DNA from: Acidobacteriota bacterium
GTDB lineage: Bacteria; Acidobacteriota; Thermoanaerobaculia; Gp7-AA8; JAHWKK01
Reading direction: 5' to 3'
DNA length: 64,000 bases
NCBI GenBank assembly: GCA_019347945.1
Contig: JAHWKK010000001.1
Coordinates: 255,299 to 319,298 of the forward strand
Positions 26,030 to 46,967 of the stretch are shown one piece after another. How positions within the stretch are numbered: position 1 is the first letter of the stretch; each line of letters opens with the position of its first letter. A program made the position numbers and the translations under genes. The notes beneath the pieces are model-generated. The model did not search any database. It was not told where the DNA came from and worked only from the letters and a program-made list of their open reading frames with translations.

Positions 26030-26112
26030 GGGCTGCGTCACTTCCTGAAAATCAGTTGACGTTGCAACGGGTGACGCGACAGACTTGCGCTTCGCGAAAC
26101 TCGAGGATCGAT

Positions 26113-30198: not shown

Positions 30199-31290
30199 AT
30201 GAGCCAGACCAAGCAAGAGCGCTCCCCTCAGTCGAACGTGCGCAACGCGACCATCCGAGACGTCGCGGAGCGGGCCGGCGTCTCGGTCGCAACCGTCTCC
30301 CGGGTTCTCAACTCCACCTCACAGGTACGTGGTGAAACAGCCCAGCGTGTGCTCGAAGCCACCGAAGCGCTCGATTACGTCCCGCACGTCGGTGCGCGGA
30401 GTCTCTCGACTCGCCGGACCAGTACGGTCGGCGTGCTCCTCCCCGACCTCCACGGCGAGTTCTTCTCCGAGGTGATTCGAGGAATCGATTCGGCGGCGAG
30501 GCGAACCGGCTATCACCTCCTCGTGTCTGGTTCCCACAGCGACTGGACCGAGATGTCAGCCGTGCTGGGAGCGACGAGAGGTCGAGTCGACGGCATCATC
30601 GTGATGGCCCCCGACCGCGATGCGGAGGCGGTGCGGATTCATCTCCCGCGGGGAGTTCCGGCGGTTCTTCTGAATTGCCACGCCGACTCGATTCCGTCGA
30701 TCAGCGTCGACAACAAGGGAGGAAGTCGTGCGATGGTGAGGCATCTCGTCTCGCTGGGACACAAACGGATTGCGTTCATTCGCGGTCCGGAGGCGAACGC
30801 CGATGCGTGGGAGCGTCTGCAGGGTTACCGCACGGAGATGCGGCGGACGGGTGATCGGGACGAGGATCTCGAGCTCGCCGGGGATTTCACCGAAGAGGGG
30901 GGATTCGCGGCAGCAGGCGTCGCGCTCGCGCTCGACCCGAGGCCGACGGCGATCTTCGCGGCCAATGACGCGATGGCGGTCGGAGCGCTCGGTGCTCTGC
31001 GCGAGCAGGGAATCGACGTTCCAGGCGCGATGGCGGTCGCGGGATTCGACGACATCCCGATCGCACGATTCATGGCCCCTCCTCTGACGACCGTCGGGGT
31101 CGAGATCTCGGAGTTCGGCCGGCGTGCCTTCAATCTTCTCCAGGACGTTCTCTCGGGCGACGAGAGAGCTCTTCGCAGCGAAACGGTCTCGACAAGACTC
31201 GTGATCAGGGAATCGTGCGGGGGTGCTGTCGATCCCCGCCTGAAAGTCAACCAGAAACGAAAACCAGTAACGAAGAGGAGAGCAGAATGA
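30199..31290 (+). CDS. LacI-family transcriptional regulator
   Basis: A 363-residue repressor. The DNA-binding domain has ATIRDVAERAGVSVATVSRVLN at residues 17-38. The rest is a periplasmic-binding-protein-like sugar domain (VGVLLPDLHGEFFSEVIRGI, IFAANDAMAVGALGAL, VAGFDDIPIARFMAPPLTTV). It heads an operon of receptor, importer and glycosidases, so its inducer is probably an oligosaccharide from the same substrate. It overlaps the next gene by 4 bases. Confidence 0.93.
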   Translation: MSQTKQERSPQSNVRNATIRDVAERAGVSVATVSRVLNSTSQVRGETAQRVLEATEALDYVPHVGARSLSTRRTSTVGVLLPDLHGEFFSEVIRGIDSAARRTGYHLLVSGSHSDWTEMSAVLGATRGRVDGIIVMAPDRDAEAVRIHLPRGVPAVLLNCHADSIPSISVDNKGGSRAMVRHLVSLGHKRIAFIRGPEANADAWERLQGYRTEMRRTGDRDEDLELAGDFTEEGGFAAAGVALALDPRPTAIFAANDAMAVGALGALREQGIDVPGAMAVAGFDDIPIARFMAPPLTTVGVEISEFGRRAFNLLQDVLSGDERALRSETVSTRLVIRESCGGAVDPRLKVNQKRKPVTKRRAE

Positions 31291-34112
31291 GTGAGATACG
31301 AAAAAGGCCAGGGATCTTTGCGTGGTCGCTGACGTTGTTCCTCATCGCGATGTTCGCGGTGCCGGCGATGGGACAAACCACGACCTCGAGGATTCGGGGC
31401 TCGGTGGTCGATATGCAGGGCAACGCCGTCGGGTCGGCGGAGGTGAACGCCGTCAATGTCAACACCGGATTCGTCCAGACGGTCAGGACCCGCGGCGACG
31501 GGACCTTTACGGTGCCGGGTCTGATCCCCGGCGATTACACAGTGCTGGTCGCGTCGCCGGCGTTCCAGACGTACCAGAGGGAACTGACGCTGCTGGTAGG
31601 CCAGACGCTGACTCTCGATCTGGTTCTCACACCATCGACTGTTCTGGCCGAGGAGATCACGGTCGTCGCGGGCATTCCGGTCGATATGGACGCGACCGAG
31701 GTCACGACGAATGTCACGCGTGAGCAGATCGAATCGCTTCCGCAGAACGATCGCAATTTCCTGAACTTTGCGGTCCTCGCGCCGGGTGTGACCCTCAGCT
31801 CCGATCCGCAGAACAAACAGGTTCGTGGTGGCGCACAGACGGCGGCGGCGACCAATGTCTACATCGACGGAGTCAGTCTCAAAAACGACGTCATCCAGGG
31901 CGGCGTGATCGGACAGGACTCGAGCCGCGGGAATCCGTTCCCTCAGAATGCCGTGCAGGAGTTCCGCGTCATCACCCAGAACTACAGCGCGGAGTACCAG
32001 AAGGCTTCGAGCGCGATCATTACGGCAGTCACGAAGTCGGGCTCGAACCAGCTCAGGGGCAATGTGTTCGCCTATTACCAGGACAAGGATCTCGTCGACG
32101 ACGACCCGTTCTCCGAAGCGCGGAATCAGCCGAAGCCGGAGTATGAGCGCATGCAATGGGGGATGAGTCTGGGGGGACCGATCGTACAGGACAAGATGCA
32201 CTTCTTCATCTCCTACGAAGCAAACGATCAGGACCGACAGGAGCGAGTGACCTTCGGACCGAATCGCACCCGTCCGTTCGCACAGGAGTTCCTCCACCTG
32301 GAGGGAACGTTCACGCAGCCGTTCAGGGAAGACCTCGCGTTCGGGAAACTGAGTTTTCAGCCGAGCTCGAGCCAGATCTTCGACTGGAGTGCGATGTACC
32401 GTGACGAGTCGGACATCCGAAGCTTCGGAGGAGACCGGGCGTTCACGGCGGGAGAGAACGTGCTTCAGGAGGTCTGGGGCACGACGCTTCGTCACCAGTT
32501 GACCGCCGAGACCTGGCTGAACGAAGCGTCGCTCAGCTACAACGACTACGCCTGGAGTCCGACCCCGGTGACCGAGGAGCCGTCCCGTCTTTACTTCGGC
32601 TTCGGCTGGGTCGGAGGGCGCGGTGGCGAACAGGATATCGGCCAGCAGCGCCTTTCCTTCCGCGACGACCTCAGCTTCACGGGATTCGAGATGGCGGGCT
32701 GGCATATGTTCAAAGTCGGCGCGATCGCCGAGCTTCTCGAGTACAACGTCCGAAAGGACTTTTTCGGAAATCCGATCTTCATCTTCAATCCCGACGTCAG
32801 CACCGAGTTTCCGATCGAGGCGGAGTACGGCCTCGGCGATCCCGACCTTTCGGCGGACAACGAGCAGTTCGGCGTTTACGTCCAGGACGAGTGGGCAGTC
32901 AACGACCGGCTGATGGTGAACCTCGGGATTCGATGGGACTACGAGACGAACATGCTCGATCCCGATTACGTGACGCCGGCCAACATCCGAGAGACGTTCG
33001 AGGACATTCTCCCCGCCCGGTACTTCACGGACGGCACCCAGCGCGAGACGCCGAATGATCTGTTCGCGCCTCGCCTGGGTCTGGCGTACAACCTCTTCGA
33101 CGACGGGAGCACCGTGCTCTTCGGTGGGGCGGGTCGTTACTACGACCGTGTGCTGTTCAACGACATCCTCGACGTTCGGTTCCGTCAGCAGTACAGGCAG
33201 GGGCGCTTCCGATTTTCGGAGGATGGCCAGCCGCGAGACGGCTTCCAAACGGTCCAATGGGACGACCGTTACTTCACCGAAGAGGGATTGCAGGAAGTCA
33301 TCGCCGCGGGCGTGACCGGCAAGCCGGAAGCGTTCCTCATCGAGAACGATACGGAGACACCGTACTCGGACCAGTGGAACATCGGCGTGCGCCAGCAGTT
33401 CGGCAAGTTCCTGGCCTCGCTCAGCTACGCGAACATCCGAAGCTACAACGGATTGTCGTACATCTTCGGCAGCCGGAACCCGAATGGGACTTGCTGCGCG
33501 GTCGACCCGAGCTGGCCGTTCTCGAACGTGCTGATCTCGACCGACGACAAGAGGACGTGGTACGACGCGGTATATCTGACCCTCGACCGGCCCTTCACTG
33601 CGGCCTCGAACTGGGGATTCAACGTTGCGTACACCTGGAGTGATGCCGAGCAGATCGGTGGAGACCTCTTCAGCCTGGACGCTCCGACTGTGGAGGACTA
33701 TCCGCGTTACAGTGTCCCGGGTTCGCGCGAGCACGTTCTCGTTGCAAGCGGACTCGTCGGGATTCCATACGACATCCGTCTCGGTACGATCATCCAGTAC
33801 GGGTCTGGTGACGCGTTCAACGTCTTCGATGCATCCCGAGGGTTCGGACCGAACGAGTTCGTGATCCGGTGGGGAGAGGGCGAGGGCCGAAGCTACACGA
33901 CGGTCGATCTGCGCGCCGAGAAGGATTTCGTGATCGCAGGATCGAGCAGTATCGGCATCATCCTCGAGGCTTTCAACGTGTTCGGAGAGGACCGGTTCAC
34001 CGCGTACGAGTCGTTCATCCCGCCGCAGGGGAATCCGCGTTTCGGAGAGCCGAACGCGATCATCAGCGGATCACAGCGGCGCTTCCAAGTCGGTGTGAGA
34101 CTGGGCTTCTGA
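31287..34112 (+). CDS. TonB-dependent receptor of the glucan locus
   Basis: A 941-residue Oar-like receptor: signal peptide (LFLIAMFAVPAMGQ), carboxypeptidase-regulatory-like domain (about 32-110), plug with NVYIDGVSLKNDVIQGG and IITAVTKSGSNQLRGN, and a barrel ending GVRLGF. AGAGGAG precedes the start, which overlaps the regulator stop (ATGA). It probably brings oligosaccharides across the outer membrane. There is no SusD-like lipoprotein beside it, so it differs from Bacteroidetes SusCD systems. Confidence 0.9.
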   Translation: MSEIRKRPGIFAWSLTLFLIAMFAVPAMGQTTTSRIRGSVVDMQGNAVGSAEVNAVNVNTGFVQTVRTRGDGTFTVPGLIPGDYTVLVASPAFQTYQRELTLLVGQTLTLDLVLTPSTVLAEEITVVAGIPVDMDATEVTTNVTREQIESLPQNDRNFLNFAVLAPGVTLSSDPQNKQVRGGAQTAAATNVYIDGVSLKNDVIQGGVIGQDSSRGNPFPQNAVQEFRVITQNYSAEYQKASSAIITAVTKSGSNQLRGNVFAYYQDKDLVDDDPFSEARNQPKPEYERMQWGMSLGGPIVQDKMHFFISYEANDQDRQERVTFGPNRTRPFAQEFLHLEGTFTQPFREDLAFGKLSFQPSSSQIFDWSAMYRDESDIRSFGGDRAFTAGENVLQEVWGTTLRHQLTAETWLNEASLSYNDYAWSPTPVTEEPSRLYFGFGWVGGRGGEQDIGQQRLSFRDDLSFTGFEMAGWHMFKVGAIAELLEYNVRKDFFGNPIFIFNPDVSTEFPIEAEYGLGDPDLSADNEQFGVYVQDEWAVNDRLMVNLGIRWDYETNMLDPDYVTPANIRETFEDILPARYFTDGTQRETPNDLFAPRLGLAYNLFDDGSTVLFGGAGRYYDRVLFNDILDVRFRQQYRQGRFRFSEDGQPRDGFQTVQWDDRYFTEEGLQEVIAAGVTGKPEAFLIENDTETPYSDQWNIGVRQQFGKFLASLSYANIRSYNGLSYIFGSRNPNGTCCAVDPSWPFSNVLISTDDKRTWYDAVYLTLDRPFTAASNWGFNVAYTWSDAEQIGGDLFSLDAPTVEDYPRYSVPGSREHVLVASGLVGIPYDIRLGTIIQYGSGDAFNVFDASRGFGPNEFVIRWGEGEGRSYTTVDLRAEKDFVIAGSSSIGIILEAFNVFGEDRFTAYESFIPPQGNPRFGEPNAIISGSQRRFQVGVRLGF

Positions 34113-34242
34113 TCGATTCAACACCGGTCGGAGGGCGGCGGATCATGCCGTCGCTCTCCCCGGTGGTCTCGACCGGTACTGACATTCTGACGAACAACCT
34201 CTGTATGAATGCTGCCTGCGGTTTGCGATGCTGGAGGTGACG

Positions 34243-35745
34243 ATGTTCCCGAACAAGGCTACGGGTGTTAGGAAAGCTGCAAGACGCCGGATGGCACTGA
34301 CGCTTCTGATCCTGGTTCTGGCGAGCTGCCAGACGAGCCCGCCTGCGGGCGATCTCGAAGCATCGGGAACAGACGATCAAGTCCGGAGGCGCGCGGTCAG
34401 CCGGCCGGACGCCACGGCCATCACCCCGTTCGTCAACGATCTCCAGAAGCGGTCATTCGGCTACTTTTGGGATCTGACCAACGAAGAGAACGGCCTCACG
34501 CCCGATCGCTGGCCCCGGGAAAGCTTTTCGAGCATCGCAGCAGTGGGATTCGCGCTGCCGGTCTATGCGGTAGGAGTCGAGCGGGGATGGATCAGCCGCG
34601 AGCAGGCGCGCGAGCGGGTCCTCACGACACTCGAGTTCTTCATGAATGCGCGGATGGGCCCGGAGGCGAGGGGCAACACCGGCTATCAGGGTTTCTACTA
34701 CCACTTTCTCGACATGGATACCGGGGAGCGATTCGCGGACACCGAGCTCTCGAGCATCGATACGACGCTTTTGCTCGCCGGCGTCCTCTTCTCGCAGAGC
34801 TACTTCGACCAGAATCATCCGGACGAAGCCCGGATCCGCCAGCTGGCCGAGGATCTCTATCTCCGGGCGGACTGGACGTACTTCCTGACGCGGCCTCCGC
34901 TCGTGTCGATGGCGTGGCGGCCGGAGCGAGGGTTTGGCCGGGCGGACTGGCGCGGATTGAACGAGGCGGCTGTCCTCTATTTTCTCGCGCTCGGATCGCC
35001 GACCCATCCGGTCGATCCCGAGGCGTGGGACGCGTGGGCGAGCACGTACCAGTGGCGCGACTTCTACGGATACGAGCATTTCAATTTCGCTCCGCTCTTC
35101 GGCCACCAGTACTCGCACATCTTCGTCGATTTTCGCGGAATCCAGGACGAGTATCTGCGCGAAAAGGGGATCGATCTGTTCGAGAACTCCCGCCGCGCGG
35201 TCCTCTCGCAGCGCGAGTATGCGATCGACAATCCGGTGGGGTGGCGCGGATACGACTCCGAGATCTGGGGGCTGACCGCGTGTGATGGCCCGGGTGACGG
35301 GCAGATGGTCGTCAACGGCGAGACGCGTCAGTTCTGGTCCTATCACGCGCGAGGGGCGGCGGCGACCGAGATTCGCGACGACGGAACGATCGCTCCGACC
35401 GCGGCCGCGGCGTCGATCCCATTCGCGCCGGAGGTCGTCATACCCGCCATCGAGGCGATGAACCGTCGTTACGGACGAATTCTGTACCAGAAGTATGGCT
35501 TCCTCGATTCGTTCAATCCGACGATCACCAGCAATCCGTCGTTCGAGCTGAAGCATGGAAGGATCGATCCGGAGCTCGGGTGGGTCGACGGTGACTATCT
35601 CGGGATCGACCAGGGTCCGATCGTTCTGATGATCGAGAATTACCGAACGGGACTCGTCTGGGAGGTCATGAAGAAGAACCCGCACCTCGTTCGTGGACTG
35701 AAGCGGGCGGGCTTCTCGGGCGGATGGCTCGACGAGACCGAATGA
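34243..35745 (+). CDS. Glycoamylase-like lipoprotein (PF10091, GH144-type)
   Basis: A 500-residue lipoprotein (lipobox LVLASC) with a glycoamylase-like alpha/alpha-barrel: FVNDLQKRSFGYFWDLTNEE, RGNTGYQGFYYHFLDMDTG, WGLTACDGPGDGQM and YQKYGFLDSFNP. Characterised members of this family (GH144) are beta-1,2-glucanases and sophorohydrolases, so a beta-glucan is the likely substrate. GGAGGTGACG before the start at 34243 is an excellent ribosome site. The 130-base gap before it may allow separate control. It overlaps the binding-protein gene by 4 bases. Confidence 0.85.
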   Translation: MFPNKATGVRKAARRRMALTLLILVLASCQTSPPAGDLEASGTDDQVRRRAVSRPDATAITPFVNDLQKRSFGYFWDLTNEENGLTPDRWPRESFSSIAAVGFALPVYAVGVERGWISREQARERVLTTLEFFMNARMGPEARGNTGYQGFYYHFLDMDTGERFADTELSSIDTTLLLAGVLFSQSYFDQNHPDEARIRQLAEDLYLRADWTYFLTRPPLVSMAWRPERGFGRADWRGLNEAAVLYFLALGSPTHPVDPEAWDAWASTYQWRDFYGYEHFNFAPLFGHQYSHIFVDFRGIQDEYLREKGIDLFENSRRAVLSQREYAIDNPVGWRGYDSEIWGLTACDGPGDGQMVVNGETRQFWSYHARGAAATEIRDDGTIAPTAAAASIPFAPEVVIPAIEAMNRRYGRILYQKYGFLDSFNPTITSNPSFELKHGRIDPELGWVDGDYLGIDQGPIVLMIENYRTGLVWEVMKKNPHLVRGLKRAGFSGGWLDETE

Positions 35746-37046
35746 CGGCGCGGCAGCGCATGCGGATCGTTCCGCGACTCGGGGCGGCGCTCGTGCTTTT
35801 CGGCGGGCTCCTCGCGGGGATCGCATCGTGCTCGTTCAGGAGCGGTGCGGACGTCACGGTGATCGAGTTCTGGGGGCTCGGCCGTGAAGGAGAAGTCGTC
35901 GCCGAGCTCGTGCCGGAGTTCGAGCGGCTGAACCCCGGCATTCGCGTCGAAGTCCAGCAGATCCCGTGGACCGCGGCGCACGAGAAACTTCTCACCGCCC
36001 ACGTCGGAGAGTCGCTTCCCGACCTCGCCCAGATGGGCAACACCTGGATTCCCGAGTTCCATCTGGTCGGAGCTCTCGAGAATCTCTCCTCCCGCATGGA
36101 TGCCTCGGACATCGTCGTCCAATCCGATTATTTTCAGGGAATCTGGGACACGAATCTGATCGGGAACGATCCGTTCGGCATCCCGTGGTACGTCGACACG
36201 CGCGTTCTCTTCTACCGAAAGGACATTCTGCAGGAAGCGGGATTCGATCATCCCCCGCGGACGTGGAGCGAGTGGATGCGAATGTGCGAGCGGCTGAAAG
36301 CGAACAGCGATCGCGAGAGCTTTTATCCGCTGCTCCTTCCGACCAACGAGTGGCCGCAGCCGGTCGTCCTGGCGCTCCAGACCGAAGCCCCGTTCGTCAG
36401 CGAAGACGCGAACGCGCAGTTTCATGATCCTCGCTTCCTCGAGGCCTTCGATTTTTACCTCGAGTTCTTCCGACGGGGACACGCCCCGGTGATCAGCGGC
36501 AGCCAGATCGCGAATCTCTACCAGCAGTTCGGCGAAGGAGAGTTCGCGATGTTCATCACGGGCCCGTGGAACGTCGGCGAGCTGCGGCGCCGTCTTCCGG
36601 AGCACCTCCAGTCGAGCTGGACGACGGCGCCGATGCCCGCCCCCGACGGCGAGCCGTACCCCGGCGCGTCTCTGGCCGGGGGGTCGAGTCTCGTATTGTT
36701 CCGGGGCTCGGAGAACCCCGACGCGGCGTGGAAATTCATCGAGTTTCTCTCCGAACCGGCGCAGCAGGCGCGCTTCTACAAGCTCACCGGAGATCTTCCC
36801 GCGCGAAAGTCCGCGTGGGATGTTCCGGTCCTCGCGGAAGATCAGGAGATTCAGGCGTTCCGGACTCAGCTCGAGAACACCGTGGCGCTTCCGCGGATCC
36901 CGGAATGGGAACGGATCGCCACGATGATCTTCGAGGAGGGGGAGCTTGCCGCTCGGGGCCGGTTCACGACCGAGCAGGCGGCCGACCGGCTCGATTCGAG
37001 AGTCGACGAGGTCCTCGTGAAGCGCCGCTGGGTGATGACGCAATGA
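35742..37046 (+). CDS. Sugar ABC transporter substrate-binding lipoprotein
   Basis: A 434-residue extracellular solute-binding protein, family 1. The start at 35742 overlaps the previous stop. The signal ends with lipobox GIASC. VTVIEFWGLGREGEVVAELV, PGIRVEVQQIPWTAAHEKLL and GEFAMFITGPWNVGELRR are typical of oligosaccharide-binding proteins such as those for maltose or cellobiose. It delivers sugar in the periplasm to the two permeases that follow with ATGA overlaps. Confidence 0.93.
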   Translation: MTARQRMRIVPRLGAALVLFGGLLAGIASCSFRSGADVTVIEFWGLGREGEVVAELVPEFERLNPGIRVEVQQIPWTAAHEKLLTAHVGESLPDLAQMGNTWIPEFHLVGALENLSSRMDASDIVVQSDYFQGIWDTNLIGNDPFGIPWYVDTRVLFYRKDILQEAGFDHPPRTWSEWMRMCERLKANSDRESFYPLLLPTNEWPQPVVLALQTEAPFVSEDANAQFHDPRFLEAFDFYLEFFRRGHAPVISGSQIANLYQQFGEGEFAMFITGPWNVGELRRRLPEHLQSSWTTAPMPAPDGEPYPGASLAGGSSLVLFRGSENPDAAWKFIEFLSEPAQQARFYKLTGDLPARKSAWDVPVLAEDQEIQAFRTQLENTVALPRIPEWERIATMIFEEGELAARGRFTTEQAADRLDSRVDEVLVKRRWVMTQ

Positions 37047-37942
37047 GGATGTGGAAACCGAGCGGCTCCGAGGCGCGAGCGGGCGTGCTGTTCGTGCTGC
37101 CGGCGCTGACGCTGATCGGGGTCTTCTTCTTTCTCCCTGTTGCCGCGGGTCTGCTGCTCAGTCTGACCGATTTCGACATTTACTCCCTCGGCAATGCAGA
37201 ACACACCAGGTTCGTCGGTGGGGGAAACTATCTCGAGCTGGTCCGCAGTCAGATTTTCTGGAAGGCGCTGTGGAACACGCTCTACTTCTCGCTCGTGGCG
37301 GGACCGCTGACGATTCTCCTCGCGCTCGGTACGGCGCTGCTCCTCAACGCGAAGCTGGGACGGTTCAGGACCTTCTTCAGGACGGTTTACTTCGCGCCGG
37401 TCGTGACCACGCTGGTCGCGGTCGCCGTGGTCTGGCGCTACCTCTACCACCCGCGCGTCGGACTGATCAATCGCTTCCTCGGGCTTTTCGGAATCGAGCA
37501 GATCGACTGGCTGGGCGATCCGGCGTGGGCAATGCCGGCGATCATTCTGCTGGCCATCTGGAAGAACTTCGGTTACGGAGCAATCATCTTTCTCGCCGGA
37601 TTGCAGAATGCCCCGGAGGATCTCTACGAAGCGGCGCGGATCGACGGAGCAGGACCGCTGCGGCAGTTCTGGCACGTGACGCTGCCGGCGCTCGCCCCGA
37701 CATTCGTCTTCGTCGCGCTGATCACGGCGATCGGCTACGTGCAGATTTTCGCGGAGCCGTACGTGATGACCCCCGAGGGTGGGCCGCTCAACAGCACGTT
37801 GACGATCGTGCTGCTTATGTATCGGGAAGGGTTCCGCTGGTGGAACATGGGCTTCGCCGCGGCGATCGCCTTCATTCTGTTCGTTCTGGTCGTGAGCGGC
37901 GCGGTGGCGATGGCGTTTGCGAGACGGAGACTGGCGAAATGA
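37043..37942 (+). CDS. Sugar ABC transporter permease, MalF/UgpA type
   Basis: A 299-residue inner-membrane permease with six helices. The EAA loop that contacts the ATPase reads EDLYEAARIDGAGPLRQFWHV. FVLPALTLIGVFFFLPVAAG is the first helix, and IGYVQIFAEPYVMTPEGGP precedes the last. It overlaps its neighbours by 4 bases on both sides and pairs with the next permease. Confidence 0.93.
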   Translation: MRMWKPSGSEARAGVLFVLPALTLIGVFFFLPVAAGLLLSLTDFDIYSLGNAEHTRFVGGGNYLELVRSQIFWKALWNTLYFSLVAGPLTILLALGTALLLNAKLGRFRTFFRTVYFAPVVTTLVAVAVVWRYLYHPRVGLINRFLGLFGIEQIDWLGDPAWAMPAIILLAIWKNFGYGAIIFLAGLQNAPEDLYEAARIDGAGPLRQFWHVTLPALAPTFVFVALITAIGYVQIFAEPYVMTPEGGPLNSTLTIVLLMYREGFRWWNMGFAAAIAFILFVLVVSGAVAMAFARRRLAK

Positions 37943-38769
37943 CGAAAGCACGCCGCCTCGCTTCATCCGTTGCCATCAATGGAATGCTGATTCTCGGCGG
38001 ATTTCTCACGGTAATTCCCCTCCTCTGGATGGTGTCGGCTTCCCTGATGCCGGCGGGTGAAGCGACGGCGTTTCCGCCGCGGCTGCTTCCGAGCCGTGTG
38101 ACGTTCGAGCACTATTACGATCTCTTCGCGCGACTCGATCTCGGGAAGGCGCTGTTCAGCAGCGCGGTGATCTCGATCGTCTCGACGCTCTGCTCGCTTC
38201 TGTTCAGCTCGATGGCGGGCTACGCCTTTGCGAAGCTGCGATGGGGCGGGAGGGACAGAGTGTTCGCCTTTCTCGTCGCCGCGCTCGCGATTCCGGCGCA
38301 GGTCACCATGCTCCCCCTCTTTCTGATGCTGAAGTCGATGGGGCTGGTCAACACGTACGTCGGTGCGATGATCCCGTTTCTGGCGACGATCTTCGGGATC
38401 TTTCTCGTTAGACAGTTCATGCTGTCGGTCCCGGACGATCTGATTGCGGCGGCGAGGATGGACGGAGCCAACGAGTGGCAGATCTACTGGTCGATCATTC
38501 TGCCGCTCGCGCGACCGGTGCTCGCGACGCTCGCCATCTTCACCTTCATGTCGGCATGGAACGACTTCATGTGGCCGCTGATCATCCTCACCGATGATGA
38601 CCGCTACACGCTTCCCGTCGCGGTGGCGAATCTTCTCGGCGAGCATGTGCAGGATCTCGAGCTGATGATGGCGTCGTCGGTGCTGACGATCATTCCGGTC
38701 CTGGCAGTATTCGTCATTCTGCAGAAGCAGTACATCGCCGGACTCATGGCGGGGAGCGTGAAGGGATGA
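37939..38769 (+). CDS. Sugar ABC transporter permease, MalG/UgpE type
   Basis: A 276-residue inner-membrane permease. The EAA loop is DDLIAAARMDGANEWQIYWS. The family C-terminus ending LQKQYIAGLMAGSVKG is complete. It forms the membrane channel together with the preceding permease. Overlaps of 4 bases on both sides imply tight co-expression with the glycosidase gene that follows. Confidence 0.93.
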   Translation: MTKARRLASSVAINGMLILGGFLTVIPLLWMVSASLMPAGEATAFPPRLLPSRVTFEHYYDLFARLDLGKALFSSAVISIVSTLCSLLFSSMAGYAFAKLRWGGRDRVFAFLVAALAIPAQVTMLPLFLMLKSMGLVNTYVGAMIPFLATIFGIFLVRQFMLSVPDDLIAAARMDGANEWQIYWSIILPLARPVLATLAIFTFMSAWNDFMWPLIILTDDDRYTLPVAVANLLGEHVQDLELMMASSVLTIIPVLAVFVILQKQYIAGLMAGSVKG

Positions 38770-41700
38770 GACCGGCGATCGGCGCTTCCTTCCTCCTGGC
38801 GATCCCCTTCTTCGCTTTCGGCACGAACGCGGTTGTCCAGCCACGCACGCTGGACGATTTCTCCTCGGTGGAACGATGGGAAGCCGATCCCTCTCCGGGA
38901 GTTGAGATGGAAATCTCGAGGGGAGAGGGCCGGACCGGGGCGGCGCTGAGGGTCGATTTCGATTTCGGCGGCGGTGGTGGTTATGCGATCTCGCGGCTGC
39001 CGGTCGATATCGATCTGCCGGAAAATTACGAGCTGTCGTTTCTCATACGAGGCGAGACTCCCGTCAATACGCTCGAGGTCAAGTTTCTCGACGAGTCCCG
39101 CGAGAACGTCTGGTGGAGCGTCAAACGTCGCTATCGATTCCCGACCGACTGGACGCGTCTCCGCTACAAAAAGCGGCATCTCGACTTTGCGTGGGGGCCG
39201 CAGGGTGGCGGAGAAATCAAGAAGCTTTCCGCAATCGAGATCGTCGTGGTTGCCGCGGAGGGAGGAAAGGGAACGATCTGGGTCGACGACCTGACGTTCA
39301 CTCCGCTCGAGCCGGAAAGACCGTACGATCTGACCCCGTCGCTGAGCGCCTCGTCCACGCTTTCGCCCAACGCTCCAGTTTACGCGCTCGACGGCAGCGA
39401 AGCGACGGCGTGGCGGAGCGGCCGCGGAGGCGAGCAGCATATCGAGATCGACTTCCTCCGTCGCCGCGAGATCGGAGGACTGATCATCGACTGGGCCGAA
39501 GGAAGCTTCGCGAGCGACTATGACGTCGTTCTTTCGGTCGATGACAGCTCCCGGGACACCGTCTGGCGAACGCGCGGAGGCGACGGAGGCCGGGATTGGA
39601 TCGTGTTGCCCGAAGCCGAGGCGAGCTATGTGCGTCTGGTTTTCCTGCGCGGTCCCGGAGCGGGATACGGCATCCGCGAGATCGACGTGCTGGAGCCGCA
39701 GGCGTCCGAAACGAAGAGTGCGATGTGGGAGCGGATCGCCGCGGAGTCCCCCGCCGGATCGTTTCCTAAGTATCTCTCGGGACGGCAGTCCTACTGGACG
39801 GTGATCGGCGCCGCGGGAGACCGGGGCGAGGCGCTGATCAACGAGGAGGGGACGATCGACATCGATCCGATCCGCTTCTCGCTCGATCCCTTCCTCCGCG
39901 TGAAAGGGGACAACGAGGCGCTCCTCACATGGACGGACGCGAAGACGATCACACAATCGCTTGCCGGCGGTGATCTGCCGATTCCGACGGTGGTTCGGGA
40001 TCATGGCGATCTCGAGCTCTCGATCACGGCATTCGCGCGCGGAGAGGCGGGTCATTCGGTGCTGTGGGTGCGGTATCGAGTGGCCAACAGCAGCCGGACT
40101 CAAAAGGATGTGACGCTGCATCTCGCAATCCGGCCGCTTCAGGTCAACCCTTCGTGGCAGTTCCTGGCGATGCCGGGAGGAACGACGGACATCGTTTCGC
40201 TTCAGCGCAAGGGCGCGCGAATCGTTGTCAACGATACGACCAGCGTCATTGCTGTGACCCGGCTCGATTCATTTGGCGCGATGCGATTCTCGGAAGGGGA
40301 GATTGTCGATCGTCTGCACTCGAATGCGATCCCGGAAACGCCGGCCGTCGAAGATCCCCTCGCCTCAGCCTCGGGAGTGATGTCGTGGTCGTTCGCCATT
40401 CCGCCCGGCTCGGCTCGCGACGCCGTCGTCGCCGTCCCCTTTCACGAGCGCCCCGCCGGTTTTGACGGCGGGCTTTCGATGGCGAGCGCCGCCGCAGCCG
40501 CGGAGCGCGAGCTGGAAGTGGCACGGGCCGACTGGGAGAATCGTCTCGGACGGGTCGGGATTCATCTCCCGGAGGTGGCCAGTCATGTCGGCAGGGCGAT
40601 CCGGAGCAATCTCGCATACATCCTGATCAACAGGGATGGCCCTTCGATTCAGCCGGGCTCCCGATCCTACGACCGGTCGTGGATTCGCGACGGCTCGCTG
40701 ACTTCGGCGGCTCTTCTCCGGCTCGCGCATCCGGAAGAAGTGAAGGACTTCATCGAGTGGTATGCCCTTCATCAGCGGGACGACGGCTACGTTCCCTGCT
40801 GCGTAGGCGAGCGTGGCGCTGATCCCGTGCCGGAGAACGACAGTCACGGCCAGTTCATCTACCTCATCCGGGAGTACTACGACTTCACCGGCGACCGGGC
40901 GCTTCTCGAAAGGATGTGGCCGCACGTGCTCGGGGCCGTCGAGTACATGGACGAGCTCCGCCATCAGCGGATGACCGACGAGTATCGCGAAGAGGAGAAG
41001 CGAGCCTTTTTCGGGCTGATGCCGGAGTCGATCAGTCATGAAGGCTATTCAGCGAAACCGATGCACTCGTTCTGGGATGACTTCTTCGCGCTGAAGGGGT
41101 TCGAGGACGCGGCCCGGATCGCCGCGGCTCTCGGAGAGGAAGAGAAGAGAGAAGAGATCGCCGCGATCCGCGACGAGTTTCGCCGCGACCTCCATGCATC
41201 GATCGATCGCACGATGGCGATGCACGGAATCGACTACATCCCGGGATCGGTCGAGCTCGGAGATTTCGATGCGACCTCGACGACGATCGCGATCAATCCG
41301 GGCGACGAGCTCCGGAGGCTTCCAGAGGATGCGCTCGAGTACACGTTCGATCGCTACTGGCGGGAAATCGTCGCACGGCGTGACGGCGAGGTCGAGTGGG
41401 AGGCTTACACGCCGTACGAGTGGAGGACGGTCGGCACGTTCATCCGGACGGGGCAGCCGGAGCGCGCGAAGGCGCTCATCGACTGGTTCTTCACCCACTC
41501 GAGGCCGCCTGCGTGGAACCACTGGGCGGAGGTAGTGTTTCGCGACGAGACGACCCCGAAGTTCATCGGCGACATGCCGCACACGTGGGTCGGATCGGAC
41601 TTCATCCGGTCGATCCTCGACATGTTCGCCTGGGAGCGGGACGATGCGCTCGTCATCGGAGCCGCGTTGCCGCTCGACTGGGTCACGAGCGAGAACGGAG

Positions 41701-41912
41701 TTGCGATCGACATGCTCAGAACCCGGTACGGCCCGCTCAGCTGGACGTTGAAGCGCGAAGGCGCGGAGATCGTCGCGGAGATCGGGGAAGGAGTGGAGAT
41801 GCCGGCGGGGGGAATCGTCGTCGTGTCGCCGATCGACCGGAGCGAGACGATCGTCCGGGAAGTACCGGCGCGGGTGTCACTCGGACGACTGAACGAAGGG
41901 GTGAGACGTTGA
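38766..41912 (+). CDS. Large multidomain six-hairpin glycosidase-like protein with discoidin domain
   Basis: A 1048-residue exported protein with a signal-like N-terminus. Residues about 25-180 are a beta-sandwich like a carbohydrate-binding module (RTLDDFSSVERWEADPSPGV). About 190-320 are an F5/8-type C (discoidin) domain (YALDGSEATAWRSGRGGEQH, GYGIREIDV). About 340-1000 are an alpha/alpha six-hairpin barrel with SYDRSWIRDGSLTSAALLRL, GYVPCCVGERGADPVPENDS and WEAYTPYEWRTVGTFI. The family is uncharacterised to my knowledge. Its place between importer and GH94 genes suggests it cuts the same glucan in the periplasm. Confidence 0.8.
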   Translation: MRPAIGASFLLAIPFFAFGTNAVVQPRTLDDFSSVERWEADPSPGVEMEISRGEGRTGAALRVDFDFGGGGGYAISRLPVDIDLPENYELSFLIRGETPVNTLEVKFLDESRENVWWSVKRRYRFPTDWTRLRYKKRHLDFAWGPQGGGEIKKLSAIEIVVVAAEGGKGTIWVDDLTFTPLEPERPYDLTPSLSASSTLSPNAPVYALDGSEATAWRSGRGGEQHIEIDFLRRREIGGLIIDWAEGSFASDYDVVLSVDDSSRDTVWRTRGGDGGRDWIVLPEAEASYVRLVFLRGPGAGYGIREIDVLEPQASETKSAMWERIAAESPAGSFPKYLSGRQSYWTVIGAAGDRGEALINEEGTIDIDPIRFSLDPFLRVKGDNEALLTWTDAKTITQSLAGGDLPIPTVVRDHGDLELSITAFARGEAGHSVLWVRYRVANSSRTQKDVTLHLAIRPLQVNPSWQFLAMPGGTTDIVSLQRKGARIVVNDTTSVIAVTRLDSFGAMRFSEGEIVDRLHSNAIPETPAVEDPLASASGVMSWSFAIPPGSARDAVVAVPFHERPAGFDGGLSMASAAAAAERELEVARADWENRLGRVGIHLPEVASHVGRAIRSNLAYILINRDGPSIQPGSRSYDRSWIRDGSLTSAALLRLAHPEEVKDFIEWYALHQRDDGYVPCCVGERGADPVPENDSHGQFIYLIREYYDFTGDRALLERMWPHVLGAVEYMDELRHQRMTDEYREEEKRAFFGLMPESISHEGYSAKPMHSFWDDFFALKGFEDAARIAAALGEEEKREEIAAIRDEFRRDLHASIDRTMAMHGIDYIPGSVELGDFDATSTTIAINPGDELRRLPEDALEYTFDRYWREIVARRDGEVEWEAYTPYEWRTVGTFIRTGQPERAKALIDWFFTHSRPPAWNHWAEVVFRDETTPKFIGDMPHTWVGSDFIRSILDMFAWERDDALVIGAALPLDWVTSENGVAIDMLRTRYGPLSWTLKREGAEIVAEIGEGVEMPAGGIVVVSPIDRSETIVREVPARVSLGRLNEGVRR

Positions 41913-44281
41913 AACCCGAATCGGGGGAATCCGGTTATGGCCACTTTTCCGGCGACGGTCTCGAATACGTCGTCACGAATCCGCGCACGCCGCGCCCCTG
42001 GTCGAACATCATCTCGAACCAGCGCGTGGGACTCGCGGTCAGTCAGTCGGGGAGCGGCTTCACGTGGATCGACAATTCGCAACTCGCGGTCATCACGGCC
42101 TGGCAGCAGGACTTCGCCAGCGACACCTCGGGCAAGTTTCTCTTCGTTCGCGATAGGGAGTCGGGAGAGGTCTGGTCGCTCTCGCCCGCGCCGGTCTGGA
42201 GGGATCCGGAGTCATACCGGTGTCGTCACGGCATCGGGTACACGACGTTCGAAGCGGAGAATCACGAGATTGCGAGCGAGTGGACGCTGTTCGTTCATCG
42301 GCACGATCCGGTCGAGCTGTGGCTCGTCACGCTCCGGAATCTCGGGTCGAGACCTCGTCGCCTCGCGCTGACCTCGTACCTCGAGTGGTGCTGCGGGGTT
42401 GCGCCCGCGCCGCGGCGCGAATTTCACAAACTCTTCCTCGAGAACGCCTTCGATCCATCGCACCGCGCGGTCCTCGGGTGGAATCACATGTGGGACGTGC
42501 CGTCGAAACGGTACGGGCACTGGAACGCTGATTTTCCCTATGTCGCGGCGTTCGCGACGACGGAAGCGGTCACGGCCGCGGAGGGGGAAAAGGTGGCGTT
42601 TCTCGGACGGTACGGGACGCTTCGCGATCCGTGCGCTCTCCGGCAGGAAACGTGGGAGGGGCGGTTCGGACGCCACGTCGATCCGGTCGGTGCGATGCGG
42701 TCGGCGGTCGAGCTCGCACCGGGTGGTGAGATGCAGATCGGATTTTCGCTGACGATGGACGTCTCGCCGGAGTCCGCTCTCCGCTCCTCGACGGCATGGA
42801 GCAAACCGGCGTCGATCGAGCGCGAGCTGAACGAGGTCCGAAAGAGCTGGCGAAGCCTGCTTGCGACGCACCGACTGGAGACCGGTGACGATCGCTTCGA
42901 CGGGCTGATCAACGACTGGGTGCGCTATCAGGCGATCTCGGCCAGGTTGTGGGGACGCTGTGGTTACTACCAGCAGAGCGGCGCGTTCGGATTCCGTGAC
43001 CAGCTGCAGGACTCGCAGGTCTGGCTGACGATCGAGCCGGAGCATTGCAGGGAGCAGATCAACCTTCATGCGGAGCACCAGTTCGCCGACGGATCGGTCT
43101 ATCACTGGTGGCACCCCCTCACGGAGCAGGGGCTCGTGACGACGATGACCGACGATCTGCTCTGGCTTCCGTTCGTGACTGCCAATTACATCCGGGAGAC
43201 CGGGGACTACGCCATTCTCGAGGATCAGGTCCCGTTCCTCGATCAGAGGGAGCGCTCGCCGCTTCACGAGCACGTTCGCCGCGCTTTCGAACGCGTCTTT
43301 CTCCGGACGAGCGAGCGCGGACTTCCCCACATCGGGGCGGGCGACTGGAATGACGGGCTGTCGGCGGCCGGCCTCCAGGAGCGTGGAGAGTCGGTCTGGC
43401 TGGGCCATTTCCTCGCGGGGCTTCTGGCCGACTGGAGGGAGATCGGCCGGCGAGGAGGTCATGCGCCCTTCGCCGCGGACTACGCCGACCGGCGGGCCGC
43501 ACTCGTCGCGGCGATCAACGAGCACGGCTGGGACGGAAGCTGGTACTGGCGCGCGAGCCTGGACGACGGGTCGAAGATCGGCAGCGCGGAAAACGACCGG
43601 GGCTCGATCTTCCTCAACGCGCAGACGTGGGCGATTCTCAACGACGTCGCCCCGCCCGATCGTGCCCGAACCGCCTGGGCCGCGGTGTGCGAGAGGCTCG
43701 TGACGAACGTCGGCGCGCTGCTTCTCAGTCCCGCTTACGACGAGCCGGTTGCTCCAATCGGATACATCACCCGCTATGCGCCGGGTCTCCGGGAGAATGG
43801 CGGGGTCTATACGCATGCCGCGACGTGGGCGATCGCGGCCGCCGCGAAGATGAAGGATGCCGGGACGGTCGGCAGACTGCTCGAAGCAATCGATCCGACC
43901 AACAAGGACCCGGAGCGTTACTGGGCGGAGCCGTACGTGCTGCCGGGCAATGTCGACGGACCGGAGTCACCGCTGTTCGGCCGGGCGGGATGGACCTGGT
44001 ATACGGGATCGGCTGCGTGGCTTCATCGCGTCGTCTCCGAGTGGGTGTTCGGGATTCGTCCCGACTGGAACGGGCTGAAGGTTGATCCCTGCCTTCCTCC
44101 GTCCTGGTCGTCGGTGCGGATGACGCGACCGTGGCAGGACAGCCTCTTCGAAATTCAAATCGAGCGCGGGCAAAAGCCGCAAATCGAGCTCGACGGTCGT
44201 GAGCTTTCGGGCAACGTCATCGAGCCGCTCCCCCGGGGCGGCACGCACCGGGTGAAGGTAGTGGTGAAGAGTGAAGAGTAA
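41909..44281 (+). CDS. GH94 glycoside phosphorylase
   Basis: A 790-residue enzyme starting at TTG within a TTGA overlap. The N-terminal domain (YGHFSGDGLEYVVTNPRTPR) and the alpha/alpha-barrel with HIGAGDWNDGLSAAG are typical of GH94; D482 in WNDG is the proton donor. The enzyme cleaves beta-glucosides with phosphate to give glucose 1-phosphate. Size suits cellobiose, laminaribiose or related disaccharide phosphorylases; sophorose-type oligomers are also known in GH94. There is no signal peptide, so it acts in the cytoplasm. Its last codons (VVKSEE) lie in a tandem array. Confidence 0.9.
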   Translation: MKPESGESGYGHFSGDGLEYVVTNPRTPRPWSNIISNQRVGLAVSQSGSGFTWIDNSQLAVITAWQQDFASDTSGKFLFVRDRESGEVWSLSPAPVWRDPESYRCRHGIGYTTFEAENHEIASEWTLFVHRHDPVELWLVTLRNLGSRPRRLALTSYLEWCCGVAPAPRREFHKLFLENAFDPSHRAVLGWNHMWDVPSKRYGHWNADFPYVAAFATTEAVTAAEGEKVAFLGRYGTLRDPCALRQETWEGRFGRHVDPVGAMRSAVELAPGGEMQIGFSLTMDVSPESALRSSTAWSKPASIERELNEVRKSWRSLLATHRLETGDDRFDGLINDWVRYQAISARLWGRCGYYQQSGAFGFRDQLQDSQVWLTIEPEHCREQINLHAEHQFADGSVYHWWHPLTEQGLVTTMTDDLLWLPFVTANYIRETGDYAILEDQVPFLDQRERSPLHEHVRRAFERVFLRTSERGLPHIGAGDWNDGLSAAGLQERGESVWLGHFLAGLLADWREIGRRGGHAPFAADYADRRAALVAAINEHGWDGSWYWRASLDDGSKIGSAENDRGSIFLNAQTWAILNDVAPPDRARTAWAAVCERLVTNVGALLLSPAYDEPVAPIGYITRYAPGLRENGGVYTHAATWAIAAAAKMKDAGTVGRLLEAIDPTNKDPERYWAEPYVLPGNVDGPESPLFGRAGWTWYTGSAAWLHRVVSEWVFGIRPDWNGLKVDPCLPPSWSSVRMTRPWQDSLFEIQIERGQKPQIELDGRELSGNVIEPLPRGGTHRVKVVVKSEE

Positions 44282-44450: not shown

Positions 44451-44490
44451 TCCTGATCCCTGATCCCTGATCCCTAATCCCTTCCCCTGA
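44451..44490. repeat. CCCTGAT tandem array reaching into the end of the GH1 gene
   Basis: About five degenerate TCCCTGA/TCCCTAA units. The array covers the stop and the last codons (IRGRD) of the minus-strand GH1 gene, where it reads GGGATCA on the coding strand. Confidence 0.8.
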
Positions 44491-45811
44491 TCACATCGGC
44501 CACGAACCGGCCGCTCCGCTTCATCGTTCGCTTCTGCGTCTGGTAGTTGACGTGGACGATGCCGAGCCGCTGGGAGAAGCCGTGGGCCCACTCGAAGTTG
44601 TCGAGCAGCGACCAGATGAAGTAGCCGCGGAGGTCGACTCCCTGCTTGATGGCGTCGAGAGCCGCCCGGAAGTGCGCGCGGAGATAGTCGACTCGAAGCG
44701 GATCCTCGAGAATGTCCCCCTCGACGGCGGGCGGGTCGTAGAAGGCGGCGCCGTTCTCGGTCACATAGAGCGGAATCCGGCCATAGCGCTCGGTGACCCA
44801 GACGAGCGTGTCGCGCAGTCCCGCGGCGTAGACCTCCCATCCTGTCGTCATGTGCGTCGCGTGAGGCTGCCGGACTCGCTCCGCCCGCTCGATCGGCTCG
44901 TTCGGATCGTCCCGGACGACGGCGCGCGTGTAGTAGTTGATCCCGAGAAAGTCGATCGGCTGGCGGATGAGCTGGAGGTCCTCGTCCGGCCAGGCGGGGA
45001 AGGCTTCGCCGAACATCTCGGTCATCTCCTCCGGATACGAGCCGAGCAGAGCGGGATCGAGGTACTGCCGGTTCATGTAGGCGTCGGCGCGACGCGTCGC
45101 AGCGAGGTCGGCTTCGCTATCCGAGGCGGGGTACTTCGGCTCGATGTTGACGACGAGTCCGATCTTCCCTTTGCCGGTCGATCGGTACGCCTGGACCGCG
45201 GCCCCGTGAGCCCGGAGCAGATTGTGCGAAGCGATGGGTGCCTCGAAACGGTTGGCGTGACCCGGAGCGAGGACGCCGTGGAGGTAGCCGCCGTCGGAGA
45301 CCACCCACGGCTCGTTGAGCGTGACCCAGAGCGGATTCCGGTCGTCCAGCGCTCGGAATGCGACCGAGGCGTATTCGGCGAACCAGTCCGCAATGTCGCG
45401 ATTCAGCCAGCCCCCGCGGTCATCCAGAGCGGCCGGGAGATCCCAGTGATAGAGCGTGATCATCGGGCGGATGCCGGCGTCGAGGAGTCCGTCGACGAGC
45501 CGGCGATAGAAGTCGAGCCCCTTTTCGTTGACTGCTCCGGTGCCTGCAGGAAGGATCCGTCCCCACGCGATGCTGAATCTGTAGGCCCCCAGGCCGAGCT
45601 CGCGCATGAGGGCGATGTCATCGCGCCAGCGGTTGTAATGATCGCAGGCGACGTCACCCGTATCGCCGTTCGCGACTTTGCCTTTCGTGTGGCTGAAGCG
45701 GTGCCAGATCGACGCCCCCGCGCCGTCGGCGAGAGGCGCCCCCTCGATCTGATACGCGGAGGTCGCGGCACCCCAGAGAAACCGCTCGGGAAACTTCAGA
45801 CGATGTGACAT
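44474..45811 (-). CDS. GH1 beta-glucosidase
   Basis: A 445-residue family 1 glycoside hydrolase. It starts MSHRLKFPERFLWGAATSAYQ. E167 in TLNEPWVV is the acid/base and E352 in YVTENGAAF is the nucleophile. There is no signal peptide, so it would hydrolyse imported beta-linked glucose disaccharides in the cytoplasm. A longer start at 45916 exists but adds unrelated residues. It is convergent with the GH94 gene and divergent from the ABC ATPase gene. Confidence 0.93.
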   Translation of the reverse strand: MSHRLKFPERFLWGAATSAYQIEGAPLADGAGASIWHRFSHTKGKVANGDTGDVACDHYNRWRDDIALMRELGLGAYRFSIAWGRILPAGTGAVNEKGLDFYRRLVDGLLDAGIRPMITLYHWDLPAALDDRGGWLNRDIADWFAEYASVAFRALDDRNPLWVTLNEPWVVSDGGYLHGVLAPGHANRFEAPIASHNLLRAHGAAVQAYRSTGKGKIGLVVNIEPKYPASDSEADLAATRRADAYMNRQYLDPALLGSYPEEMTEMFGEAFPAWPDEDLQLIRQPIDFLGINYYTRAVVRDDPNEPIERAERVRQPHATHMTTGWEVYAAGLRDTLVWVTERYGRIPLYVTENGAAFYDPPAVEGDILEDPLRVDYLRAHFRAALDAIKQGVDLRGYFIWSLLDNFEWAHGFSQRLGIVHVNYQTQKRTMKRSGRFVADVIRGRD

Positions 45812-45902
45812 CGTCGCGAATCTTACTTTCAAAGCCCCGGGGCGTGGAGTCAGCCCCACAGAACCTCGTGGACATGCTCGCGTCCCCGGTAGAGAATGGA
45901 TC

Positions 45903-46967
45903 ATGGCCAACGTCACGCTCGATCGGGTTCGGAAGGTCTACGACGGCGATTACGTGGCCATCGAGGAGGCGACATTCGAGGCGAAAGACGGTGAGCTGCT
46001 CGTCTTCGTCGGCCCCTCCGGCTGCGGCAAGAGCACGCTGCTGCGAATGATTGCCGGGCTGGAGGAGATCACCTCCGGCACGATCAGGATCGGGGACCGG
46101 ATCGTCAACGACGTCGCACCGCAGGCTCGCGACGTCGCGATGGTGTTCCAGACGTATGCGCTCTATCCGCACATGACGGTGCGGAAGAACCTCGCCTTCG
46201 GTCTGAAGCTGCGGAAGGCGAGCAAAGAGGAGATCGATCGGCGCGTCGGAATCGCCGCGGACCTTCTCGAGCTCGGCCCGCTTCTCGACCGGAAACCGAA
46301 GCAGCTCTCGGGGGGTCAGAGGCAGCGCGTCGCGCTCGGGCGGGCGCTCGTCCGGGAGCCGGCCGTCTTTCTGCTCGACGAGCCGCTCTCGAATCTCGAT
46401 GCGAAGCTCCGTCTGCAGATGCGGACAGAGATCGCGAAGCTCCACCGGCGGCTAGGAACGACGATGATCTACGTCACGCATGACCAGATCGAGGCGATGA
46501 CCCTCGGAGACCGGATCGTCGTGCTCAACGACGGCCGCATCCAGCAGATCGATACACCGATGAATCTCTATCTGAAGCCAAAGAATCTCTTCGTAGCGGG
46601 ATTCATCGGAAGCCCGGCGATGAACTTCATCCGCGGGCGGGTGGAAGTGGATCCGTCGATGAGCTTCATTTCGCGGGACGGCGCGCTGAGGGTCCCGCTC
46701 GATGAGCGATCTCCAGGGGGGAGCCGGGAGGCGATTCTCGGCGTTCGCCCCGAGGATCTCGACATCGACGGGCGGGGCGGGGAGACGGTGCTCGAGCTGG
46801 TCGAGCCGGTGGGAAACGAGACGTTCGTCTACGCTCGCGCGGGGGAGACGCAGCTCGTCGCGCGAGTCGCGCCGACCGACCTGCCGAAACCGGACAGCCG
46901 CATCGGGCTCCGCTTCGACCCCGAGAAGCTTCACCTGTTCGATCCGTCGGACGGAGCACGCCTGTAG
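45903..46967 (+). CDS. Sugar ABC transporter ATPase, MalK/UgpC/MsmK type
   Basis: A 354-residue ATPase. Walker A GPSGCGKST is at 37-45, LSGGQRQR at 135-142, and FLLDEPLSNLD includes Walker B. A C-terminal TOBE domain (about 235-354; ILGVRPEDLDIDGRG, RIGLRFDPEKLHLFD) is typical of carbohydrate importers. The two permeases at 37-38.8 kb lack an ATPase of their own, so this one most likely drives them. Having a separate promoter, it may also serve other importers. Confidence 0.92.
   Translation: MANVTLDRVRKVYDGDYVAIEEATFEAKDGELLVFVGPSGCGKSTLLRMIAGLEEITSGTIRIGDRIVNDVAPQARDVAMVFQTYALYPHMTVRKNLAFGLKLRKASKEEIDRRVGIAADLLELGPLLDRKPKQLSGGQRQRVALGRALVREPAVFLLDEPLSNLDAKLRLQMRTEIAKLHRRLGTTMIYVTHDQIEAMTLGDRIVVLNDGRIQQIDTPMNLYLKPKNLFVAGFIGSPAMNFIRGRVEVDPSMSFISRDGALRVPLDERSPGGSREAILGVRPEDLDIDGRGGETVLELVEPVGNETFVYARAGETQLVARVAPTDLPKPDSRIGLRFDPEKLHLFDPSDGARL

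Follow-up and report, generated by a model that had tools for sequence, protein, structure and literature searches.

A candidate GH15-related glycoside hydrolase family in the beta-1,2-glucan gene clusters of Acidobacteriota and other bacteria

In this study, we analysed a 64,000-nucleotide stretch of the genome of an Acidobacteriota bacterium (contig JAHWKK010000001.1), hereafter the window, and focused on P0001, the 1048-residue product of its open reading frame (ORF) 38766-41912 on the forward strand. We found that P0001 is encoded in an operon that targets beta-1,2-glucan, that relatives of the gene stand beside genes of the same pathway in several phyla, and that its barrel is distantly related in fold and in sequence profile to glycoside hydrolase (GH) family 15, which includes the starch-cutting glucoamylases. 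P0001 may well stand for an undescribed, widespread family of GH15-related, extracytoplasmic glycoside hydrolases of beta-1,2-glucan catabolism, which would cut a bond that GH144 enzymes cannot. The original prediction, drawn from the sequence of the window, had described a 1048-residue ORF with a beta-sandwich, a discoidin domain and an (alpha/alpha)6 barrel. All of these are present, as seen in the ORF, the Pfam matches and the AlphaFold2 models, and the interpretation then put on them is partly supported by our results.

Conservation and genomic context of P0001

The P0001 ORF stays open over 1048 codons with no internal stops, and the gene is single-copy in its genome. Its ATG start (38766) overlaps the stop of the upstream permease gene, as ATGA, and its own stop overlaps the TTG start (41909) of the downstream GH94 gene. 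Given these overlaps on both sides, the permease, P0001 and GH94 genes look translationally coupled. Within the class, 34 of the 149 genomes carry a member of the P0001 family. GTDB genome contigs hold at least 587 confirmed stretches, and 24 aligned sequences of the class share 34-67% identity with the window P0001. This conservation rules out a chance ORF. A scan of viral contigs detected no relative of P0001. One relative (L013) carries a TGA inside its frame, and is perhaps a pseudogene or the product of an assembly error.

The surroundings of the gene had been described as an operon of known glucan enzymes. This is borne out, and the matches of the GH144, solute-binding and GH94 proteins allow it to be specified as a beta-1,2-glucan operon (Table 1). 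The best PDB match of the window GH144 protein is 8xul, XCC2207 or XcSGL (E 4.5e-176), an enzyme that hydrolyses beta-1,2-glucan with narrow specificity (PMC12102758). The solute-binding protein finds its best PDB matches in 3uor (E 5e-121) and in Lin1841 (5ysb, E 8e-66), which binds sophorooligosaccharides (PMC12369401). In addition, the window GH94 protein resembles the CGS phosphorylase domain.

This association recurs well beyond the window. Our context counts rest on 80 loci kept from the at least 587 stretches, 38 of them flanked by 4.5 kb or more on each side. These 80 loci span Gemmatimonadota, Competibacteraceae, Ignavibacteria, Bacteroidota, Calditrichota, KSB1, Eisenbacteria, Acidobacteriota, Opitutia, Phycisphaerae, Stenotrophomonas, Luteimonas and others, and 68 of them have GH144, SOGP or GH94 nearby. 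GH1 accompanies P0001 in 15-16 of the loci, an MsmX-type ATPase is matched in 18, and GH35 is found in 19. The gene order of the window is seen again in Stenotrophomonas and Luteimonas (L088, L093, L106), and a Bacteroidales locus holds GH144, a P0001 relative, MFS, GH35 and SOGP in a row. Within the class, a strong PF10091 match (at least 190 bits) occurs in 30/34 carriers of P0001 versus 4/115 non-carriers (Fisher p 7e-23, with related genomes not independent). Since many bacteria keep the gene beside the genes of this pathway, P0001 probably supplies a missing step of beta-1,2-glucan use, and its membership in the pathway is very probable.

The best, albeit weak, family names returned for P0001 are oligosaccharide amylase, trehalase and GDE, as would befit an ordinary alpha-glucan enzyme (a glucoamylase, trehalase or debranching enzyme) that had come to lie in the cluster by chance. 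This explanation is very unlikely, since 35 of the 38 fully flanked loci, from several phyla, link the gene to GH144, SOGP or GH94; moreover, the P0001 genome holds two separate true GH15 genes elsewhere.

Some individual loci have a composition of their own. The Competibacteraceae loci L044 (12253-15669), L038, L041, L045 and L047 gave no GH144 match, and in them a GH94 protein lies directly downstream of the P0001 relative or within a few kb; of these loci, L044 was scanned and shows two supersandwich stretches. In Ignavibacteria and related loci (L055, L056, L058, L060, L061, L072, L085, L101), the P0001 relative is followed by a GH35 gene akin to the one in L084, an order also seen in clusters of the kind that holds the Ignavibacterium beta-1,2-glucosyltransferase. 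The Opitutia locus L090 comprises SOGP, MFS, a P0001 relative and GH3, without GH144, and a GH125-like protein is encoded there between two GH3 genes (14586-16511). The P0001 relatives of L071, L080 and L107 are flanked by 6-10 kb on either side, with none of GH144, SOGP and GH94 nearby.

Domain architecture and relationship to GH15

We modelled P0001 with AlphaFold2 in two parts, residues 22-328 (pLDDT 94.3), which hold the two N-terminal domains, and residues 323-1048 (pLDDT 89.6, pTM 0.91), in which a beta supersandwich, a linker helix, the (alpha/alpha)6 barrel and a small C-terminal beta domain follow one another. The first N-terminal domain, similar to carbohydrate-binding module (CBM) family 11, superposes with VIA-align on 6r3m (Z 18.6, root mean square deviation [rmsd] 3.5, 161 residues aligned) and 1v0a (Z 18.5, rmsd 2.9, 156 aligned). 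The Pfam model CBM_11 (PF03425) did not match P0001 and was weakly matched in 3/27 members, at best at 2.5e-5. The second is an F5/8 type C domain, for which PF00754 passes its gathering score (E 1.3e-10, 41.9 bits versus 28.2) and which was found in 27/27 relatives; it superposes on the binding module 4zz5 of a chitosanase/glucanase (Z 18.4, rmsd 1.4, 120 aligned). Hence, the two binding domains named in the original prediction are indeed separate N-terminal domains, to which the supersandwich has to be added as a third beta domain. As read from the sequence, the N-terminus of P0001 resembles a signal peptide and has no lipobox, whereas LASC and IASC lipoboxes are seen in the GH144 and solute-binding proteins. 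P0001 is thus presumably secreted, or otherwise extracytoplasmic.

That the barrel belongs to no defined GH family was also part of the original prediction, and the family searches agree with it up to a point. The catalytic half of P0001 passed no NCBIfam cut-off; TIGR01577 (oligosaccharide amylase) scored 27 bits versus 821 and reached E 0.01 or better in 20/24 members (best 1.4e-11), far below its cut-off. The only Pfam model near its cut-off in this half was Bac_rhamnosid6H (GH78, PF17389; 24.4 bits full and 25.3 trimmed versus 24.5), with a match confined to model positions 64-207 of 339; GH78 has one strong member in 101 class genomes. GDE_C (PF06202) stayed below its gathering score (15.2-16.1 bits versus 21), the GH94 models PF17167 and PF06165 did not match P0001 at E up to 1, and P0001 did not pass the GH144 model PF10091. 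Searched against the PDB, the catalytic half had no sequence relative with an E value below 0.008, and a single-sequence search of the PDB matched only the F5/8 type C domain. In the open-access literature, our search retrieved no paper with both discoidin and GH144, and none describing the P0001 family. The barrel is, however, recognisably GH15-like.

Alpha-glucosides are the substrates of GH15, GH65 and GH133, and beta-glucosides those of GH94. VIA-align ranked the GH15 dextran dextrinase 9ju0 first for P0001 (Z 32.4, rmsd 3.5, 565 aligned), and gave Z 30.0 (rmsd 2.9, 313 aligned) with the GH15 isomaltose glucohydrolase 5z3a and Z 29.2-29.4 with bacterial glucoamylase and glucodextranase (1lf6, 1ug9); GH65, GH116 and GH125 came close behind GH15. 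When the profile comparison by hhalign was restricted to the barrel, the probability was 94.6% for GH15 (E 7e-8), 45% for GDE_C, 21% for GH94 and 0.4% for GH144. P0001 shares the supersandwich and (alpha/alpha)6 barrel of bacterial GH15 members, and differs from GH15 in its two N-terminal CBM-like domains and in the occurrence of its family mostly in beta-1,2-glucan clusters. It has the fold class, pathway and operon of the GH144 enzyme XcSGL in common with it, but shows no profile similarity and has a different active site. The alpha-1,2-glucosidase FjGH65A, of GH65 and clan GH-L, is another fold match (Z 29.0, rmsd 4.6, 557 aligned), from a family whose catalytic machinery is common with GH15 (PMC8626586); no sequence-level GH65 match was reported for P0001, however, the linkage context differs, and GH65 (PF03632) was not found in 101 class genomes. 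With GDE_C (amylo-alpha-1,6-glucosidase), the RD motif and both glutamates also align, at the lower confidence given above, and the structure 7vma superposes with Z 27.7 (rmsd 4.5, 526 aligned), whereas the role of GDE_C lies in glycogen.

Predicted active site

We assessed invariance in 24 unselected sequences of the class and in a wider set of 81 sequences. Because the scan patterns themselves picked the SHEGY and HSYWD columns in the wider set, invariance of these columns counts as independent only in the unselected 24, where it also holds. In nearly all hhalign settings, the six residues Y635, W639, R641, D642, E759 and E922 pair with GH15 counterparts. Y635, W639, R641 and D642 align with Y279, W283, R285 and D286 of GH15 and are invariant in 24/24 and 81/81 sequences, and the spacing of 7 from Y635 to D642 equals that of TtGA (Y337-D344) and AgGD (Y326-D333). 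In GH15, this Arg and Asp bind O4 and O6 of the sugar in subsite -1, and the base is bonded by the Tyr (PMC8626586, PMC12446779). E759 is invariant in 24/24 sequences and, in the scan-selected column, throughout the 81; it falls in a gap with one of three GH15 subsets. E922 aligns with the GH15 base in every non-degenerate hhalign run and is invariant in 24/24 and 81/81. We therefore predict E759 and E922 as the catalytic acid and base.

Both predicted glutamates lie outside WIRDGSL and ENDSHGQF, the motifs for which an active-site role had been suggested. WIRDGSL does hold up as an active-site motif, albeit as the one that binds the -1 sugar in GH15 (PMC12446779) and not as the catalytic acid. 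No catalytic residue of GH15 aligns with ENDSHGQF, which is largely invariant. D771 (HSYWDD) was also considered as the catalytic acid and dropped, as it aligns with a GH15 Ser.

The supersandwich-plus-barrel build of P0001 is also that of its operon neighbour GH94 and of SOGP, which raises the alternative of a glycoside phosphorylase. We regard this as hardly plausible. The general acid of GH94 (the Asp of DWND) aligns with E754, a residue kept in only 20/24 and 61/81 sequences, and the phosphate-site motifs YTHA and WYTG are absent from P0001, in which YTPY and HTWVG replace them. Furthermore, P0001 has a conserved Glu at the general-base position, as do GH65 hydrolases in contrast to GH65 phosphorylases (PMC8626586), and its N-terminus resembles a signal peptide, the periplasm being an unlikely site for phosphorolysis.

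Upstream of the cluster, the window encodes two adjacent PilT-family ATPases (25909-28608 and 28610-29701), the first with a long N-terminal region of HEAT repeats (Pfam).

Table 1. Features of P0001 and its operon in the window
Feature	Position	Strand	Basis
LacI-family regulator, head of cluster	30199..31290	+	Pfam
TonB-dependent-receptor-type outer membrane protein	31215..34112	+	Pfam PF25183/PF13620; true start probably downstream of ORF start
GH144-type beta-1,2-glucanase, lipoprotein-like N-terminus (LASC)	34228..35745	+	PF10091 E 3e-82; PDB 8xul
ABC solute-binding protein, lipobox IASC	35724..37046	+	PDB matches
ABC permease 1, start approximate	37043..37942	+	ORF; conserved beside P0001 relatives
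ABC permease 2	37939..38769	+	Pfam PF00528; Met at 37939; stop overlaps P0001 start
P0001, GH15-like protein, presumably extracytoplasmic, 1048 aa	38766..41912	+	ORF, conservation, AlphaFold2 model
Probable signal peptide MRPAIGASFLLAIPFFAFGTNAVV, without lipobox	38766..38837	+	read directly from sequence
N-terminal beta-sandwich, CBM11-like, residues about 23-188	38832..39329	+	AlphaFold2; VIA-align
F5/8 type C (discoidin, CBM32-like) domain, residues 193-304	39342..39677	+	Pfam PF00754; VIA-align
Beta supersandwich, GH15/GH94-type, residues about 344-558	39795..40439	+	DSSP on AlphaFold2 model; within GH15 and GH94 alignments
(alpha/alpha)6 barrel, residues about 603-954	40572..41627	+	AlphaFold2; hhalign to GH15 barrel
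-1 subsite signature Y635-x3-W639-x-R641-D642 (WIRDG)	40668..40691	+	hhalign to GH15; conservation
D692 of ENDSHGQF, invariant	40839..40841	+	some runs align with GH15 QLDVYG Asp, not a catalytic position
E759 (SISHEGY), predicted general acid	41040..41042	+	aligned with GH15 acid E410 of L112 (IWE)
E922 (WAEVV), predicted general base	41529..41531	+	aligned with GH15 base E575 of L112 (LSE)
C-terminal beta domain, residues about 955-1041	41628..41888	+	AlphaFold2
GH94 gene	41909..44281	+	Pfam; PDB 8rf9 E 7e-140; TTG start read from sequence
GH1 beta-glucosidase, no signal peptide seen	44474..45916	-	present in 15-16 of the 80 loci
MsmX-type ABC ATPase	45903..46967	+	sequence

Proposed role in beta-1,2-glucan use

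P0001 is likely to be an active GH15-like hydrolase and, with less assurance, we take it to act on an alpha bond. The beta-glucan activity originally proposed would then be right for the pathway, whereas the bond cut by the enzyme itself is more likely alpha. In our model, the TonB-dependent receptor would carry beta-1,2-glucan, possibly cyclic, into the periplasm, where the GH144 lipoprotein would cleave beta-1,2 bonds and P0001 a bond inaccessible to GH144; the ABC transporter would take up the sophorooligosaccharides, and cytoplasmic GH94 and GH1 would complete the breakdown. The barrel would follow the inverting mechanism of GH15, a chemistry for alpha-glucosides. R641 and D642 would hold O4 and O6 of the -1 glucose, the glycosidic oxygen would receive its proton from E759, and Y635 would hold E922, which would activate the attacking water. 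Beta-1,2-glucans cyclised by an alpha-1,6 bond are made by Xanthomonas, Ralstonia and Cereibacter (PMC11228985, PMC11842490). As this closure is the one obvious natural target for an alpha-acting enzyme in a beta-1,2-glucan pathway, we tentatively put it forward as the leading guess. It is a possibility, at best tentative, that the P0001 family is the missing ring-opening or debranching hydrolase, derived from GH15, accepting a 2-O-glucosylated glucose at -1 and cutting the single alpha-1,6 bond.

Several observations weigh against this proposal. Foldseek puts GH94 first for P0001, full-length hhalign is nearly equal for GH15 (92.1%) and GH94 (91.3%), the local hhalign probability drops to 29-47% with GH15 subsets, and sequence identity between P0001 and GH15 is about 10-17%. 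The Pfam GH15 model PF00723 is not passed by P0001 (13.3 bits versus 22) and reaches E 0.01 or better in 5/24 members (best 4.3e-4). In addition, Val follows E922 (V923 in 21/24, otherwise Ile or Gly) in place of the Gln of known inverting GH15 enzymes; the GH15 dextran dextrinase (DDase) likewise lacks this Gln. For these two reasons, the sub-threshold family score and the missing Gln, we do not file P0001 as GH15. A GH15-type -1 pocket is of the exo type, yet the alpha-1,6-linked glucose of the ring bears a 2-O-glucosyl substituent. GH144 is absent from the Opitutia clusters. Finally, context can mislead on the exact substrate, since a GH35 enzyme from a Bacteroides GH144 cluster acts on beta-1,2-galactosides (PMC11739564).

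The Foldseek and full-length hhalign results led us to weigh GH94 first as the closest relative, a preference that the barrel-only comparison removed. As these two methods do not favour GH15 over GH94, the case for alpha specificity comes from the barrel comparison and the -1 motif. A serious rival to the alpha-1,6 proposal is an exo-acting beta-1,2-glucan hydrolase, possible if not probable, that would free glucose or sophorose from non-reducing ends beside the endo-acting GH144 and bind its sugar in a GH94-like orientation. All well-placed neighbours act on beta-1,2 links, GH94 equals GH15 in full-length profile similarity and tops the Foldseek ranking, a GH144 homologue that releases Sop2, cited in PMC8861115, offers a precedent, and such an enzyme would give a depolymerising step to the Opitutia SOGP clusters that lack GH144. 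On the other hand, GH94 drops to 21% in the barrel while GH15 stays at 94.6%, the acid position of GH94, E754, is not conserved, and the Tyr and Trp of the GH15 -1 site are present in P0001 and have no GH94 counterpart.

The GH15-like active site would also suit an enzyme that removes an alpha-linked decoration, or cuts another sugar, on natural beta-1,2-glucans or related polymers. This explanation is in line with the beta-1,2-galactoside activity found in a GH144 cluster (PMC11739564) and with rhamnosidase and GDE barrels being weakly matched in Pfam. It is unlikely, given that the -1 motif of P0001 is that of glucose-specific GH15 enzymes and that the literature consulted shows no alpha-glucosyl decoration besides the alpha-1,6 closure.

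Knowledge of beta-1,2-glucan enzymes has been built up from gene clusters, one family after another (GH144, GH162, GH186, GH189 and GH192-194). Our results add a large, conserved and nameless family at the core of such clusters in Acidobacteriota, Gemmatimonadota, Bacteroidota/Ignavibacteria, Calditrichota, Competibacteraceae, Xanthomonadaceae and Opitutia, and, once an activity is shown, P0001 would probably become the founder of a new GH family. It also opens to experiment the question of how bacteria cleave the alpha-1,6 linkage in cyclised beta-1,2-glucans. If P0001 does open these rings, many environmental bacteria could consume osmoregulated periplasmic glucans, including the one that Xanthomonas uses against plant immunity.

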